Notes under the pieces: model-generated | The model's input: only the letters and a program-made list of their open reading frames with translations | Told to the model about the DNA's origin: nothing | The model's database searches: none | In this document: in pieces, positions 21,630 through 29,291 of the stretch | Layout: the number at the start of each line of letters is the position of its first letter | How positions within the stretch are numbered: the stretch's first letter is position 1 | NCBI RefSeq assembly: GCF_002211445.1 | Contig: NZ_LSTO01000001.1 | Span: forward strand, 4,067,935 to 4,103,418 | DNA from: Noviherbaspirillum denitrificans | GTDB lineage: Bacteria > Pseudomonadota > Gammaproteobacteria > Burkholderiales > Burkholderiaceae_D | Length of the DNA: 35,484 bases | Direction of reading: 5' to 3' | Made by a program: the position numbers and the translations under genes

Positions 21630-24416
21630 TTATCGACGTGTCTCGACCTGGATAAGCGGCTCGTTCGACACTGGTGGCACCGGCTTGCGGACGCGCGGTA
21701 CACGTGCCGGCGGCACGAAGCGCTCTGCAGCCTCCTGGGCGACACGAAGCTTTTCCGGATCGGTGACGGCGAGCGTCAGGCCTGCTGCGGACAGAACTTC
21801 CCGCAGTTGTTCAAGCTGCATCGGAGCCGGAGCCACCAATGCCGTTGACGCGGCGACAGGAGTTGCCTGCGGTTCTGCACGCGGCGCGGCCACAGGGGCG
21901 GCCACAGGGGCGGCAACTGGTGCGGCAACTGGTGTGGCAACCGGTGCGGCGGGTTCGATTGCAGGTGCTTCGATCACTGCGGCCACAGGCGCTGCTTCAG
22001 CCTCGGCCACTTCCACAACAGCAGGAGCCGCTGCCGGTGCGGCAATTTCCGCAATTTCCAGCTGCATGGCCTGTTGCGGTTCCACGCCTTCCTCGCCTTC
22101 GTGTTCGGCGCCGGCAATGACTTCTCCGGTTTCGCGGTCGCGGCGATTCCGGTTGCGTCCACCACGGCGGCGGCGGCGGCGGCGCTCTTCGCCTTGCTGT
22201 TCGCCGGCACCTTCCGCGCCAAGCGCTGCGTCAGTTGCAATGTCGTCGTCGGCAGCCGGAACCGCTTCCACCAACGGCTGCGGAACTGCTACCGGCGTTG
22301 CCGGCACTGCATTCAGCACTTCCTCGGCGACCGGTGCGGCGGTTTCCTTGCGTTCTTCACGCTGGCGCTGCTGGCGTTCGCGGCGCGATTCATTGCCTTC
22401 GCGCGGTTCGCGGGGCTCGCGTGGTTCACGCGGCTCGCGCGCCTCCCGCGGTTCGCGGACTTCACGGGGCTCGCGCGGCGGGCGGGGAGGACGTTGTTGC
22501 GGTTGCGGTGCATCCGCTGCCGGCACGGCGGCCTGCTTAACGGTTTCCTCACGGGTAGTTTCTTCGCCGCGGTCACGTCCGCCGCGGCCGCGACGGCTAC
22601 GGCCCCGGCCGTTACGGTCGCTGCTGCTGCGTTCACGTGCCTGGGCGGGCTTTTCTTCCACGACCGGAGCAGCCTGGACGACAGGCGCCACCGGCTTCTT
22701 GCGGAAGAAACCGAATACGCGGCTGAGGAAACCTTCTTCCACCACAGGAGCGGCGACCGGTGCGGGAGCGGGCACCGGCTCGACCGGCTTGCGCTCGACG
22801 ATCGGTGCAGGCTGGTCCGGCGTAATGCCCTTGACCACGGCTTCCTGGCGCGGACGCGCTTCTTCCTTCTGGCGCTTGTTGTAGCTGATATCGGTATCCG
22901 CTTCCTCGGCCATGTCGTAGCTGGCTTGCGGCTCTTCCAGGCGCGGATCGTCGTGCTTGATGCGCTCGAGCTTGTAATGTGGAGTCTCGAGGTGCTTGTT
23001 CGGAATCATGATGATCGTCACGCGATGGCGCGTTTCGATCTTCAGGATTTCGCCGCGCTTTTCGTTCAGCAGGAAAGCGGCCACATCGACCGGTGCCTGG
23101 ACGTGAATGGCGGCGGAGTTCTCCTTCATTGACTCTTCCTGGACGATGCGCAGGACTTGCAATGCGGAGGATTCAGTGTCGCGGATATGGCCGGTGCCGT
23201 TGCAGCGCGGGCAAGTCACGTGGCTGCCTTCGGACAGCGACGGACGCAGGCGCTGACGGGACAGCTCCATCAGGCCGAAGCGGGAGATCTTGCCCATCTG
23301 CACGCGGGCGCGGTCGTAGCGCAGCGCATCCTTCAGGCGGGTCTCGACTTCGCGCTGGTTCTTTGCGTTCTCCATGTCGATGAAGTCGATCACGATCAGG
23401 CCGCCCAGGTCGCGCAGGCGCAACTGGCGTGCCACTTCGTCGGCAGCTTCAAGATTGGTGTTGAGCGCGGTGGTTTCGATGTCGCTGCCGCGGGTGGCAC
23501 GGGCGGAGTTGACGTCGATGGAAACGAGGGCTTCGGTGTGGTCGATGACGATGGCGCCACCGGAGGGCAGGGGGACGGTGCGGGAGTAGGCGGTTTCGAT
23601 CTGGTGTTCGATCTGGAAACGCGAGAACAACGGCACATCGTCACGGTAGCGCTTGACCCGGTGCACCATATCCGGCATCACGTGGCTCATGAACTGCTGC
23701 GCCTGCTCGTAGATGTCGTCGGTGTCGATCAGGATCTCGCCGATGTCGGGCTGGAAATAGTCGCGGATGGCGCGGATGACCAGCGAGGATTCCTGGTAAA
23801 TCAGGAAGGCGCCCGGGGCGGATTGGCCCGCGCCTTCGATCGCGCGCCACAGTTGCAGCAGGTAGTTCAAGTCCCACTGCAGTTCTTCGACATTGCGGCC
23901 AATACCGGCGGTACGGGCAATGACAGACATGCCGGACGGGATTTCCAGCTTGTCCATGGTTTCGCGCAGTTCCTGGCGGTCTTCGCCTTCGACGCGGCGG
24001 GACACGCCGCCTCCGCGCGGATTATTCGGCATCAGCACCAGGTAGCGGCCGGCCAGGGAAATGAACGACGTCAGGGCAGCGCCCTTGTTGCCGCGCTCTT
24101 CCTTCTCGACCTGGACCATGATTTCCTGGCCCTCGCGCAGCGCGTCCTTGATGGAGGCGTTGCGGACGTCGATGCCTTCCTTGAAATAGCTGCGCGCCAC
24201 TTCCTTGAAGGGCAGGAAGCCATGGCGTTCTTCGCCGTAATTGACGAAGCAGGCTTCCAGCGAGGGTTCGATGCGGGTGATGACACCCTTGTAGATGTTC
24301 GACTTGCGCTGTTCGCGGCCAGTCGTCTCGATGTCGATGTCGATGAGCTTCTGCCCGTCGACAATGGCCACGCGCAGTTCTTCCTGCTGCGTGGCGTTGA
24401 ACAACATGCGTTTCAT
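21630..24416 (-). CDS. rne: Ribonuclease E
   Basis: A 928-residue endoribonuclease of the Rne/Rng family. The N-terminal catalytic half has the S1 RNA-binding domain (about 35-120), a 5'-sensor region, and the DNase I-like site with Asp301 ([11 protein letters not shown]) and Asp344 (IVIDFIDM). C402 and C405 in CPRCNGTG form the zinc link between subunits. The C-terminal half from about residue 500 is low-complexity: basic and Arg/Gly-rich, a run of Arg-Glu-Pro repeats, and an Ala-Pro-Val repeat; such tails bind RNA and degradosome partners. It ends with a short motif, PLIQVETRR. It processes rRNA, tRNA and mRNA at the inner membrane. GGAG lies 9-10 bp before ATG 24416. It is followed by an intrinsic terminator and preceded by a long leader. 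Confidence 0.97.
21886..21945 (-). repeat. Five 12-bp tandem repeats in rne (Ala-Pro-Val tract)
   Basis: Five consecutive 12-bp units, two GCGGCCACAGGG, two GCGGCAACTGGT and one GTGGCAACCGGT, lie within the 3' part of rne. In the protein they encode the run of PVAA/PVAT units. The unit length is a multiple of three, so copy-number changes would keep the frame. Identical neighbouring copies suggest recent duplication by slippage. Confidence 0.85.
22398..22475 (-). repeat. 9-bp Arg-Glu-Pro codon repeats in rne
   Basis: About eight consecutive 9-bp units encode Arg-Glu followed by Pro, Val or Ala. The DNA units vary at third positions (CGGTTCGCG, GGGCTCGCG, TGGTTCACG on the plus strand). They lie in the unstructured C-terminal half of RNase E and form an alternating basic-acidic helix-like or extended spacer. 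Confidence 0.8.
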
Positions 24417-27245: not shown

Positions 27246-28253
27246 ATGATTGAAGACAATTTTGAAGAGCAGAACCAGATTCGCACATCGGTGCCGCCGT
27301 CCGCTTCGCACCAAGGCACCGGTTGGGAGCGGGAGGTTCTCGAAAAACTCGCGTTCGCCACATTGCGCGAACAGCGCGCCGCGCGTCGCTGGAACATTTT
27401 CTTCCGGATCGTCACGCTCAGCCTTATCGGATTCGGCATGTGGCTCGCATTCGGATATACCCAGCAGGATGCGGAAGTCGTTGGTCCGCATACGGCGCTG
27501 ATCGAAATTGACGGCACGATCGAATCCGGCACGTCCGGTTCGGCCGATGCGGTCATCCAGGCCCTCAACCGCGCCTATTCAGATGAAAGTTCGGTCGGTG
27601 TCGTTCTCCGTATTAATAGTCCCGGCGGCAGCCCGGTGCAGGCAGGAATGATCAATGACGAGATCGGACGCTTGCGGCAAGAATTCCCGAAGAAGCCGCT
27701 TTATGTCGTGGTCGACGAAATCTGCGCCTCGGGCGGCTATTACATTGCCGCTGCAGCAGACAAGATTTTTGTCAACAAGGCAAGCATCGTCGGCTCTATT
27801 GGCGTGCTGATGGATGGATTCGGTTTCACCGGGCTCATGGACAAAGCCGGGATCGAACGCCGGCTCATGACGGCCGGCGAGAACAAGGGCTTCCTCGACC
27901 CCTTCAGCCCGCAAAGCGCGAAGCATCGCAACTACGCGCAGGATATGCTCAATGAAGTGCACCAGCAGTTCATCGATGTTGTGCGCCATGGGCGCGGGGA
28001 CCGGTTGAAGGAAACTCCGGAAACGTTCTCCGGCCTGTTCTGGAGCGGCTCCAAGGCAGTGGAAATTGGACTGGCGGATGGTTTCGGCACCGTCGATTCA
28101 GTCGCGAGGGATGAGCTCAAGGCGGAGGATATCGTCGACTACACCCAGCGAGAAGGTTTATCCGAGCGCCTGCTGAAAAAATTCGGCGGTGCGGTGGGCA
28201 CAGCGGTAGTGAATTCGCTCTGGACCACCTCGGCCCGCCCGGCATTTCGCTAG
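27246..28253 (+). CDS. sppA: Signal peptide peptidase SppA (short form)
   Basis: A 335-residue S49-family serine protease. A single membrane helix (about residues 50-70) follows a basic cytoplasmic segment (REQRAARRW). The active domain has RINSPGGSPV (oxyanion region), nucleophile Ser162 in CASGGYYIA, and a candidate general base Lys214 in GENKGFLDPF. The short form acts as a homo-oligomer in the periplasm or on the outer membrane face and cuts signal peptides left in the membrane. ATG 27246 lies 28 bp after the Rieske gene. It is the last protein gene of the plus-strand group that starts with rluC; a small-RNA promoter follows 72 bp downstream. Confidence 0.94.
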   Translation: MIEDNFEEQNQIRTSVPPSASHQGTGWEREVLEKLAFATLREQRAARRWNIFFRIVTLSLIGFGMWLAFGYTQQDAEVVGPHTALIEIDGTIESGTSGSADAVIQALNRAYSDESSVGVVLRINSPGGSPVQAGMINDEIGRLRQEFPKKPLYVVVDEICASGGYYIAAAADKIFVNKASIVGSIGVLMDGFGFTGLMDKAGIERRLMTAGENKGFLDPFSPQSAKHRNYAQDMLNEVHQQFIDVVRHGRGDRLKETPETFSGLFWSGSKAVEIGLADGFGTVDSVARDELKAEDIVDYTQREGLSERLLKKFGGAVGTAVVNSLWTTSARPAFR

Positions 28254-28324
28254 GGCGCTAAAGGCAGCCTATGGCACTGTATTGCATCATAGAGATTTTT
28301 CAAGGCGCGGAGTCTGATACAGCC

Positions 28325-28352
28325 TTGATTCCTGCATCCTGCGCTTTATACT
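28325..28352 (+). promoter_or_regulatory. Sigma-70 promoter of the small RNA
   Basis: TTGATT (28325-28330) and TATACT (28347-28352) are 16 bp apart, matching 4/6 and 5/6 of the -35 and -10 consensus. It lies downstream of sppA, with no plus-strand protein gene after it before convergent genes begin. Transcription would start near 28358-28360. Confidence 0.7.
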
Positions 28353-28358
28353 GCAGAT

Positions 28359-28527
28359 GTCTGGCGCCGGTTTCGATCCTGTATCGCACAAGAAGCTCGT
28401 TACTGGAAAAACTCTCGGACCAGATGTCAGGAGCCGCGTTTCGGACGCGGTGTTGAGAGGCGTAATAGCCTGCTCAAGAACTGCCCGACAGGGCATGCAA
28501 AACGGCGGCGCAATACCGCCGTTTTGC
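28359..28527 (+). ncRNA. Structured small RNA, possibly a 6S RNA
   Basis: A roughly 170-nt transcription unit has its own promoter and ends in an intrinsic terminator. Local hairpins: 28434-28450 (CCGCGT/ACGCGG), 28453-28477 (9 bp with one bulge) and 28482-28495 (TGCCC/GGGCA). The same sequence can also fold as a rod: TGTCTGGC and GGTTT near the 5' end pair with GAACT and GCCCGACA at 28478-28490, and CTCTCGG pairs with TTGAGAG below the terminal hairpin, leaving a large central bubble. That rod-with-bubble shape, plus CACAAGAA on the 5' side and AGCCTGC on the 3' side, recalls E. coli 6S RNA, which sequesters sigma-70 RNA polymerase. It is shorter than the 184-nt E. coli RNA, so identity is not secure; it may be another sRNA. 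Confidence 0.55.
28497..28527. terminator. Strong stem-loop terminator, probably bidirectional
   Basis: GCAAAACGGCGG (28497-28508) and CCGCCGTTTTGC (28516-28527) form a perfect 12-bp stem with loop CGCAATA. The stem contains TTTT on either strand but has no long external U-run. It lies between the plus-strand small RNA and the stop of the minus-strand methyltransferase gene (28539), so it can serve both. Confidence 0.75.
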
Positions 28528-28538
28528 GCGTTTACGCG

Positions 28539-29291
28539 TTACTGTGCAAGCAGCAGGAAAACAGTCGGGCGTTTCTGGATATTCCCGGTTTTCCCTGAAG
28601 CTAAGTCTCCTTTCCATTTTGCCGCCGTCTGGGTACGAATGGTTTCTTCGGGCAATGAAAGATCGGTCGCCGTGCAGACCAAGGTGTTTGCCTGGCAAGT
28701 GTTTGCAAATGCTTCGAGCAGTGCAGAATTCCGGTACGGGGTTTCGATGAACAGTTGCGTCTGCTTCTCTTGCCGTGACCGCTCCTCAAGGGCTTTGATG
28801 CGCTTTGTCCGCTGAGCCGGATCGGTCGGCAAGTAGCCGTTGAATGCAAAGCTTTGTCCGTTCAGGCCGCTTGCCATTACGGCGAGCAGCAGAGAGGAGG
28901 GGCCGACCAGTGGTCGTACGCGGATGCCTTCGACGTGAGCCAATCTCACAAGATTGGCACCCGGGTCGGCTACTGCCGGCACGCCTGCTTCCGAAATCAA
29001 TCCGCCGTCGCGTCCTTCCTTGATTGGCAAGAGCAAGGATGGCAGCGACTTTGCATCGGTGTTGACGTTCAGTTCGTTGATCTGGATTTCCTGAATCGGC
29101 TTGCAAAGGGGGTGCGCCGAACCAATGGCCTTCAGGTGTGCCCGAGTGGTTTTGGCATTCTCGGCAATGAAGTAATCGAGCCTCGATGTAATGGCCTGAA
29201 CTTCGTCGGGAATCACGAATTCCGGTGAGGTTTCCTGGCCCGCACTAAAGGCGCCGAGTGTATTGGGAATCAGGTAAAGGATGCCAGGCAT
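28539..29291 (-). CDS. RsmI-like tetrapyrrole-methylase-fold SAM methyltransferase
   Basis: A 250-residue protein of the tetrapyrrole methylase (class III SAM methyltransferase) fold. GGLISEAGVPAVADPGANLV (about residues 97-116) and VGPSSLLLAVMASGLNG (129-145) match the RsmI (16S rRNA C1402 2'-O-methyltransferase) signature. However, the N-terminus YLIPNTLGAFSAGQETSPEF differs from the glycine-rich start of true RsmI, and the protein is shorter than the usual 280-290 residues. It is best regarded as an RsmI paralogue of unknown target, known in many beta- and gammaproteobacteria beside maf. The gene lies 4 bp downstream of the Maf-like gene and is probably cotranscribed with it. It ends next to a strong terminator. 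Confidence 0.85.
   Translation of the reverse strand: MPGILYLIPNTLGAFSAGQETSPEFVIPDEVQAITSRLDYFIAENAKTTRAHLKAIGSAHPLCKPIQEIQINELNVNTDAKSLPSLLLPIKEGRDGGLISEAGVPAVADPGANLVRLAHVEGIRVRPLVGPSSLLLAVMASGLNGQSFAFNGYLPTDPAQRTKRIKALEERSRQEKQTQLFIETPYRNSALLEAFANTCQANTLVCTATDLSLPEETIRTQTAAKWKGDLASGKTGNIQKRPTVFLLLAQ

Follow-up and report, generated by a model that had tools for sequence, protein, structure and literature searches.

The RNA gene and its surroundings

The window analysed here is a stretch of 35,484 nucleotides from the genome of Noviherbaspirillum denitrificans. Within it, the sppA gene is separated from a convergent methylase-like gene by a short intergenic stretch in which the initial annotation had recognized an unannotated, structured, stand-alone small RNA gene on the plus strand. 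Folding and comparison with relatives support the presence of such a gene. The features of the locus are as follows (A4 and A6 are alignments described below).

27246-28253, plus strand: sppA, peptidase family S49; upstream neighbour, outside the RNA gene
28254-28538: intergenic stretch between plus-strand sppA and the convergent methylase-like gene
28325-28352, plus strand: predicted promoter, with −35 box TTGATT (28325-28330), a 16-nt spacer and −10 box TATACT (28347-28352); 9/12 consensus matches
28358-28527, plus strand: small RNA gene of ~170 nt, both ends predicted from the sequence
28359-28425, plus strand: 5' domain, an interrupted hairpin closed by helix P1 (28359-28364 with 28420-28425); covariation in A6
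28434-28450, plus strand: stem-loop A; doubly changed pairs 3/7 in A6 and 3/7 in A4
28455-28475, plus strand: stem-loop B; doubly changed pairs 3/6 and 86.7% paired in A6
28482-28495, plus strand: stem-loop C, the weakest aligned helix; doubly changed pairs 1/5 in A6
28497-28527, plus strand: 12-bp intrinsic terminator with loop 28509-28515 (CGCAATA) and T4 at 28522-28525; 100% of cells paired in A6
28539-29291, minus strand: gene resembling tetrapyrrole methylases, the convergent neighbour downstream; its 22.8 bits fall short of the Pfam cut-off (27.8)

A scan of 28200-28620 found the promoter in place as originally described (TTGATT, 16 nt, TATACT). It is one of two promoter-like sites in this region, against 0.1 expected from shuffled sequences; the other lies on the minus strand (28276-28303; TTGAAA, 16, TACAGT), is aimed back at sppA and may be due to chance. 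The RNA would start near 28359, 6-8 nt past the −10 box, and would end at the T-run at 28522-28525. The three stem-loops and the 12-bp terminator of the initial annotation are present in both the sequence and the fold and are kept in relatives. The minimum free energy of 28357-28529 is −73.1 kcal/mol (z = −3.8), a value that none of 200 shuffled sequences equalled. A simple terminator scan of 28200-28620 returned no site because it demands five T in the eight bases after the stem, where this terminator has four.

The exact 14-base word at the terminator apex, GGCGCAATACCGCC, occurs once in the genome, so the idea that it is copied around the genome was rejected, at least for the exact matches that were sought. 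Within the genus the terminator loop (28509-28515) is nearly invariant, which is unusual for a plain terminator. A few genes upstream of sppA there is an RNase E/G-family gene (21630-24416, minus strand); it is divergent from a pseudouridine-synthase gene, the first in the run of genes that leads to sppA.

Distribution and gene context

When the intergenic region was used as a BLASTN query against 60 genomes, 20 matched, its own included: all 15 of the genus and five others of the family, making six genera. No match was obtained in 24 genomes from other families. When the 20 loci were compared, the copy lay between sppA and the methylase gene wherever tblastn found the methylase (all loci but L021). 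A covariance model of the 3' core of the RNA (R1) extended this range, within the family, to 77 of 145 genomes, representing 23 of 44 genera. Applied to 120 genomes of the order, the same model gave five matches, two of which belong to the family and three of which are out of context. The latter (L053-L055; 32.4-37.8 bits) have none of six neighbour genes alongside and were taken as chance. Their scores overlap with those of the weakest family matches, and family matches at 33.5-40 bits therefore rest on gene context.

The model was negative for 68 of the 145 family genomes. Among 20 of these that were sampled, 19 have SppA, and the 400 bases 3' of sppA were inspected in 20 loci of those 19 genomes, five weaker SppA-like loci being excluded. 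The methylase gene starts 0-114 bases past sppA in 13 of the 20 loci, with no copy seen, and five of the other seven lack a copy visible by eye. The remaining two (L170 and L171) hold divergent copies that R1 had missed, which makes 77 of 145 a minimum.

A pattern search of named genomes, combining the promoter, GAG and the terminator apex, yielded 59 stretches. Nine of them (L102, L105, L122, L126, L129, L132, L137, L147 and L159) were set aside as chance on the basis of organism or fold. The other 50, which were accepted by organism name and not one by one (26 of them were also folded), come from Noviherbaspirillum, Janthinobacterium, Duganella, Rugamonas, Massilia, Pseudoduganella, Herbaspirillum sp. 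ST 5-3, unplaced Oxalobacteraceae and metagenome bins. No plasmid copies were found by blastn at E 0.001. One genome (G130) has two model matches, L074 behind sppA and L069 near a contig end without the neighbours.

The gene context was compared for 85 copies. The end of sppA lies at most 600 bases upstream of the 3' core in 79 of these, while four (L034, L071, L091 and L098) have a Rieske gene upstream with no sppA between, and two have neither gene upstream. In the four genomes with the sppA-less locus, the only SppA-like protein is a distant one (30-31% identity) encoded elsewhere. On the downstream side the convergent methylase is the neighbour in 48 of the 85 copies. Four of five inspected loci from Janthinobacterium, Massilia, Rugamonas and Duganella have downstream, at varying distance, a plus-strand frame beginning MSK-SLDRILQSQG, which was not seen in the fifth (L152). 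The downstream frame of L104 matches RNA pseudouridylate synthase (66.8 bits); the other frames were named by likeness. Since the downstream neighbours vary by lineage, the RNA is not the leader of one gene and, with sppA also absent in some loci, its gene is bound to neither of the two neighbours. In Massilia sp. RYN_587 (L075/L124) a promoter-bearing copy lies away from sppA, which in that genome is on another contig.

Conservation of the promoter and the fold

The motif CTTG-N19-TA[TC][AG]NT is found upstream of 79 of the 85 copies. The promoter search fixed CTTG and most letters of the −10 box, and their conservation is thus given by the selection of rows. The letters that were free to vary are A at position 5 of the −35 box (0.78) and the TT soon after it (0.81 and 0.70), and near the −10 box a preceding T (0.68) and G (0.78) and, immediately upstream of TATA, a C (0.65). 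RpoS promoters, too, are marked by a C at this last position.

The fold was tested on MAFFT alignments that were not fitted to any structure. Alignments A1 and A2, the latter covering the 3' core, contain 18 of the 20 BLASTN sequences (L017, with a long insertion, and the divergent L021 were excluded). A4 represents the Massilia/Janthinobacterium/Duganella type by 29 of its 40 sequences, after exclusion of L095 (insertion) and of rows at least 95% alike to a retained one. A5 contains 14 of the 15 genus sequences (without L018), and A6 contains all 15 at full length. The proportion of cells paired and the number of doubly changed pairs are high throughout: 91.4% and 12/33 in A2, 95.4% and 14/38 in A4, 95.8% and 10/36 in A5, and 94.9% and 12/36 in A6, values reached by 1, 0, 1 and 0 of 500 shuffles, respectively. 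When the structure was slid along the alignments, 38-52% of cells were paired, yet up to eight pairs still showed a double change; because the structure was read from the members' own folds, this control leans towards it. Further pair types are not strikingly numerous, their count being reached by 154 (A2), 38 (A4), 49 (A5) and 17 (A6) of 500 shuffles. The check for covarying pairs in homologous regions downstream of sppA that was proposed with the initial annotation thus revealed compensatory pairs, for a fold of local hairpins.

The individual helices contribute unequally. P1 is paired in 97.7% of cells in A6, with four of six pairs doubly changed; in the Massilia/Janthinobacterium type its letters (GTAGTTC/GAACTAC) are quite different from those of the genus and the pairing is kept. 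As the letters of the 5' domain differ between lineages, its function may differ too. Stem-loop B is nearly invariant in A4 (99.5% paired, no double change), and the terminator has 7/11 doubly changed pairs in the same alignment. Stem-loop C, the region that had originally been paired with the 5' end of the RNA, has 3/6 doubly changed pairs in A4 and just 76.7% of cells paired. G.U cells outnumber A.C cells by 61 to 8 in A4, by 36 to 15 in A5 (on which the count for the genus was made) and, most weakly, by 33 to 21 in A2, an excess that favours the plus strand as the probable RNA strand. For the predicted promoter, hairpins and terminator, this comparative conservation is stronger evidence than the fold of a single sequence. 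The comparison shows a gene under selection for its promoter, fold and terminator, and it also establishes the strand and the conservation across the family.

Alternative identities and relation to known RNAs

The initial annotation suggested that the transcript might be a divergent 6S RNA, and several of its properties are in keeping with this or with a second 6S RNA: it is ~170 nt long (6S RNA, ssrS, is ~170-180 nt), structured and free-standing, has a sigma-70-type promoter and shows some complementarity between its ends. The comparison was not kind to this proposal. The 6S covariance model RF00013 matches nowhere in 28000-28900 at E values up to 10, nor anywhere in the window at the gathering threshold, and the genome has its own 6S RNA ~630 kb away (C1:4727055-4727236; 62.9 bits), as one was found in each of the 15 genus genomes searched, this one included. 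Second 6S RNAs are known, and a 6S RNA need not be the only one in its genome. The fold that is kept is also another one. The proposed rod with a central bubble, formed by the 5' part and the region before the terminator, is paired in 64.2% of cells with none of its 13 pairs doubly changed among the 14 sequences of A5, and 405 of 500 shuffles pair as well. The 5' TGTCTGG, thought to pair with GCCCGACA before the terminator, pairs in the kept fold with the CCAGAT region (28420-28425), closing a separate 5' domain. The words CACAAGAA and AGCCTGC, held to be shared with Escherichia coli 6S RNA, each occur in only one of the 14 aligned sequences, that of the window itself. With no model match, a 6S RNA elsewhere and a rod devoid of double changes, 6S identity was rejected as extremely improbable, which removes a false second 6S RNA from consideration.

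A short or leaderless coding gene is scarcely less improbable. An open reading frame of 152 codons (28357-28815) has its ATG at the predicted transcription start, and its first eight codons are alike (xSGxxFDP) in several members of the genus. However, among the window and 13 relatives a possible start codon is present in 12 of 14 sequences, one of them CTG, and the frame closes after 11-33 codons in ten of these 12. Only the window and L003 keep it open until the stretch ends, and there the open frames lie in different frames of the aligned letters; the 5' part also changes in length by steps of one or two bases. No reading frame being kept in A5, the coding gene was rejected. The RNA could also be merely the 3' untranslated region of sppA with its terminator, shaped by termination alone, as its place behind sppA in 79 of 85 copies would allow. 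This is improbable given that the RNA has its own conserved promoter, has covarying helices beyond the terminator and persists in the four genomes whose locus is without this sppA. Altogether, we hold with high confidence that the locus carries a real structured RNA gene that is not 6S RNA.

The wider search of RNA models that was recommended with the initial annotation came back empty, no Rfam family matching at gathering in the window. Nor did any match at gathering in 20 homologous loci, or up to E 1 in seven homologous loci (five of them among those 20). On the plus strand of 28000-28900, STnc250 (RF01409) is the sole Rfam family matched at E values up to 10, but its 14 bits against a cut-off of 42 (E 8.1) are at chance level and the aligned part is mostly terminator. 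Burkholderia cenocepacia ncS35, compared here by its description in part of the text of PMC5760752, is likewise free-standing, with 166 nt and four predicted hairpins, but lies between BCAM2068 and BCAM2069 and not behind sppA. Bordetella S17, in the portion of PMC11722255 drawn on here, is a conserved betaproteobacterial small RNA with a long form of ~190 nt and a sigma-A-type promoter, and is related to the betaproteobacterial toxic small RNA RF02278; unlike the present RNA it lies beside coq7, and RF02278 is not among the Rfam matches at our locus. The Burkholderiales-1 RNA motif, known here from a table row (PMC2864571), is a candidate structured RNA from the same order, given there without an Rfam number.

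The best reading is a new RNA family within a familiar class, that of free-standing small RNAs in bacteria, in a comparison that leaves the Herbaspirillum list and the Burkholderiales-1 alignment outside. That list, as far as the text of PMC7011215 used here goes, comprises 117 small RNAs reported in H. seropedicae and could include the present one. The open-licence literature searched, supplements excluded, names no small RNA behind sppA, which is not proof of absence from print. As far as the same literature shows, few small RNAs have been studied in Oxalobacteraceae, and these soil- and plant-associated bacteria here gain a well-supported RNA family that no Rfam model matches. Its stable site, promoter and structure ease probing and deletion of the gene.

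Proposed role

The RNA is best read as an independent, highly structured regulatory small RNA. It would be transcribed from the plus strand by its own sigma-70-type promoter, starting near 28359, and would end at the intrinsic terminator near 28525, folding into the interrupted 5' hairpin, three short hairpins and the terminator. In the likeliest reading it would then act in trans as a chaperone-bound regulator, with a protein of the ProQ/FinO type or Hfq, and pair with messenger RNAs through exposed loops. Two loops are candidates for this: that of the terminator, which reads CGCAAUA in the genus and GCAAU in the Massilia/Janthinobacterium type, and, in the latter type, a G-rich internal loop within the 5' domain. 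We consider the chances of such a trans-acting, chaperone-bound and messenger-pairing RNA to be about even. For it speaks an architecture that resembles that of common small RNAs, and the genome encodes both Hfq (103.1 bits) and a ProQ-domain protein (66.9 bits). The T-run of four, poor for Hfq, speaks against it. The terminator loop is the one conserved open stretch, seven bases in the genus and about five in the Massilia type, and no other long unpaired conserved stretch was seen as an obvious seed.

With little else both conserved and unpaired, the main rival is a protein-binding RNA whose hairpins titrate or steer a protein, as in 6S or CsrB RNA, with no antisense pairing. Most conserved letters do lie in paired stems (stem B and the terminator in A4). 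RNA polymerase bound through a 6S-type rod, however, is ruled against by the unconserved rod, and titration of CsrA was set aside as unlikely because CsrA was not found in the genome (no PF02599 match; 97.88% complete). Protein binding is a possible but rather doubtful role, and a further reading is a good deal less likely. In the Massilia/Janthinobacterium type, 24 of the 29 sequences have GGRGG, a Shine-Dalgarno-like run, within their first 32 bases (GGAGG in 12 of 29), on a 5'-domain strand that is partly open and with no evident reading frame behind it. Of 94 distinct full-length copies, 39 have GGAGG within the first 60 bases. In six loci (L036, L037, L040, L076, L085 and L117) the 5' domain has a Shine-Dalgarno-like AAGGAGG or AAGGGAGG and then an A/T-rich stretch, again with no evident reading frame following. 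The G-rich run of the Massilia/Janthinobacterium type could work as a decoy, the RNA being a family-specific structured RNA that binds a protein or the rRNA end that recognizes ribosome-binding sites, a role that we regard as quite improbable. A strict ribosome-binding site would be more uniform than this G-rich motif, which lowers the odds of the decoy.
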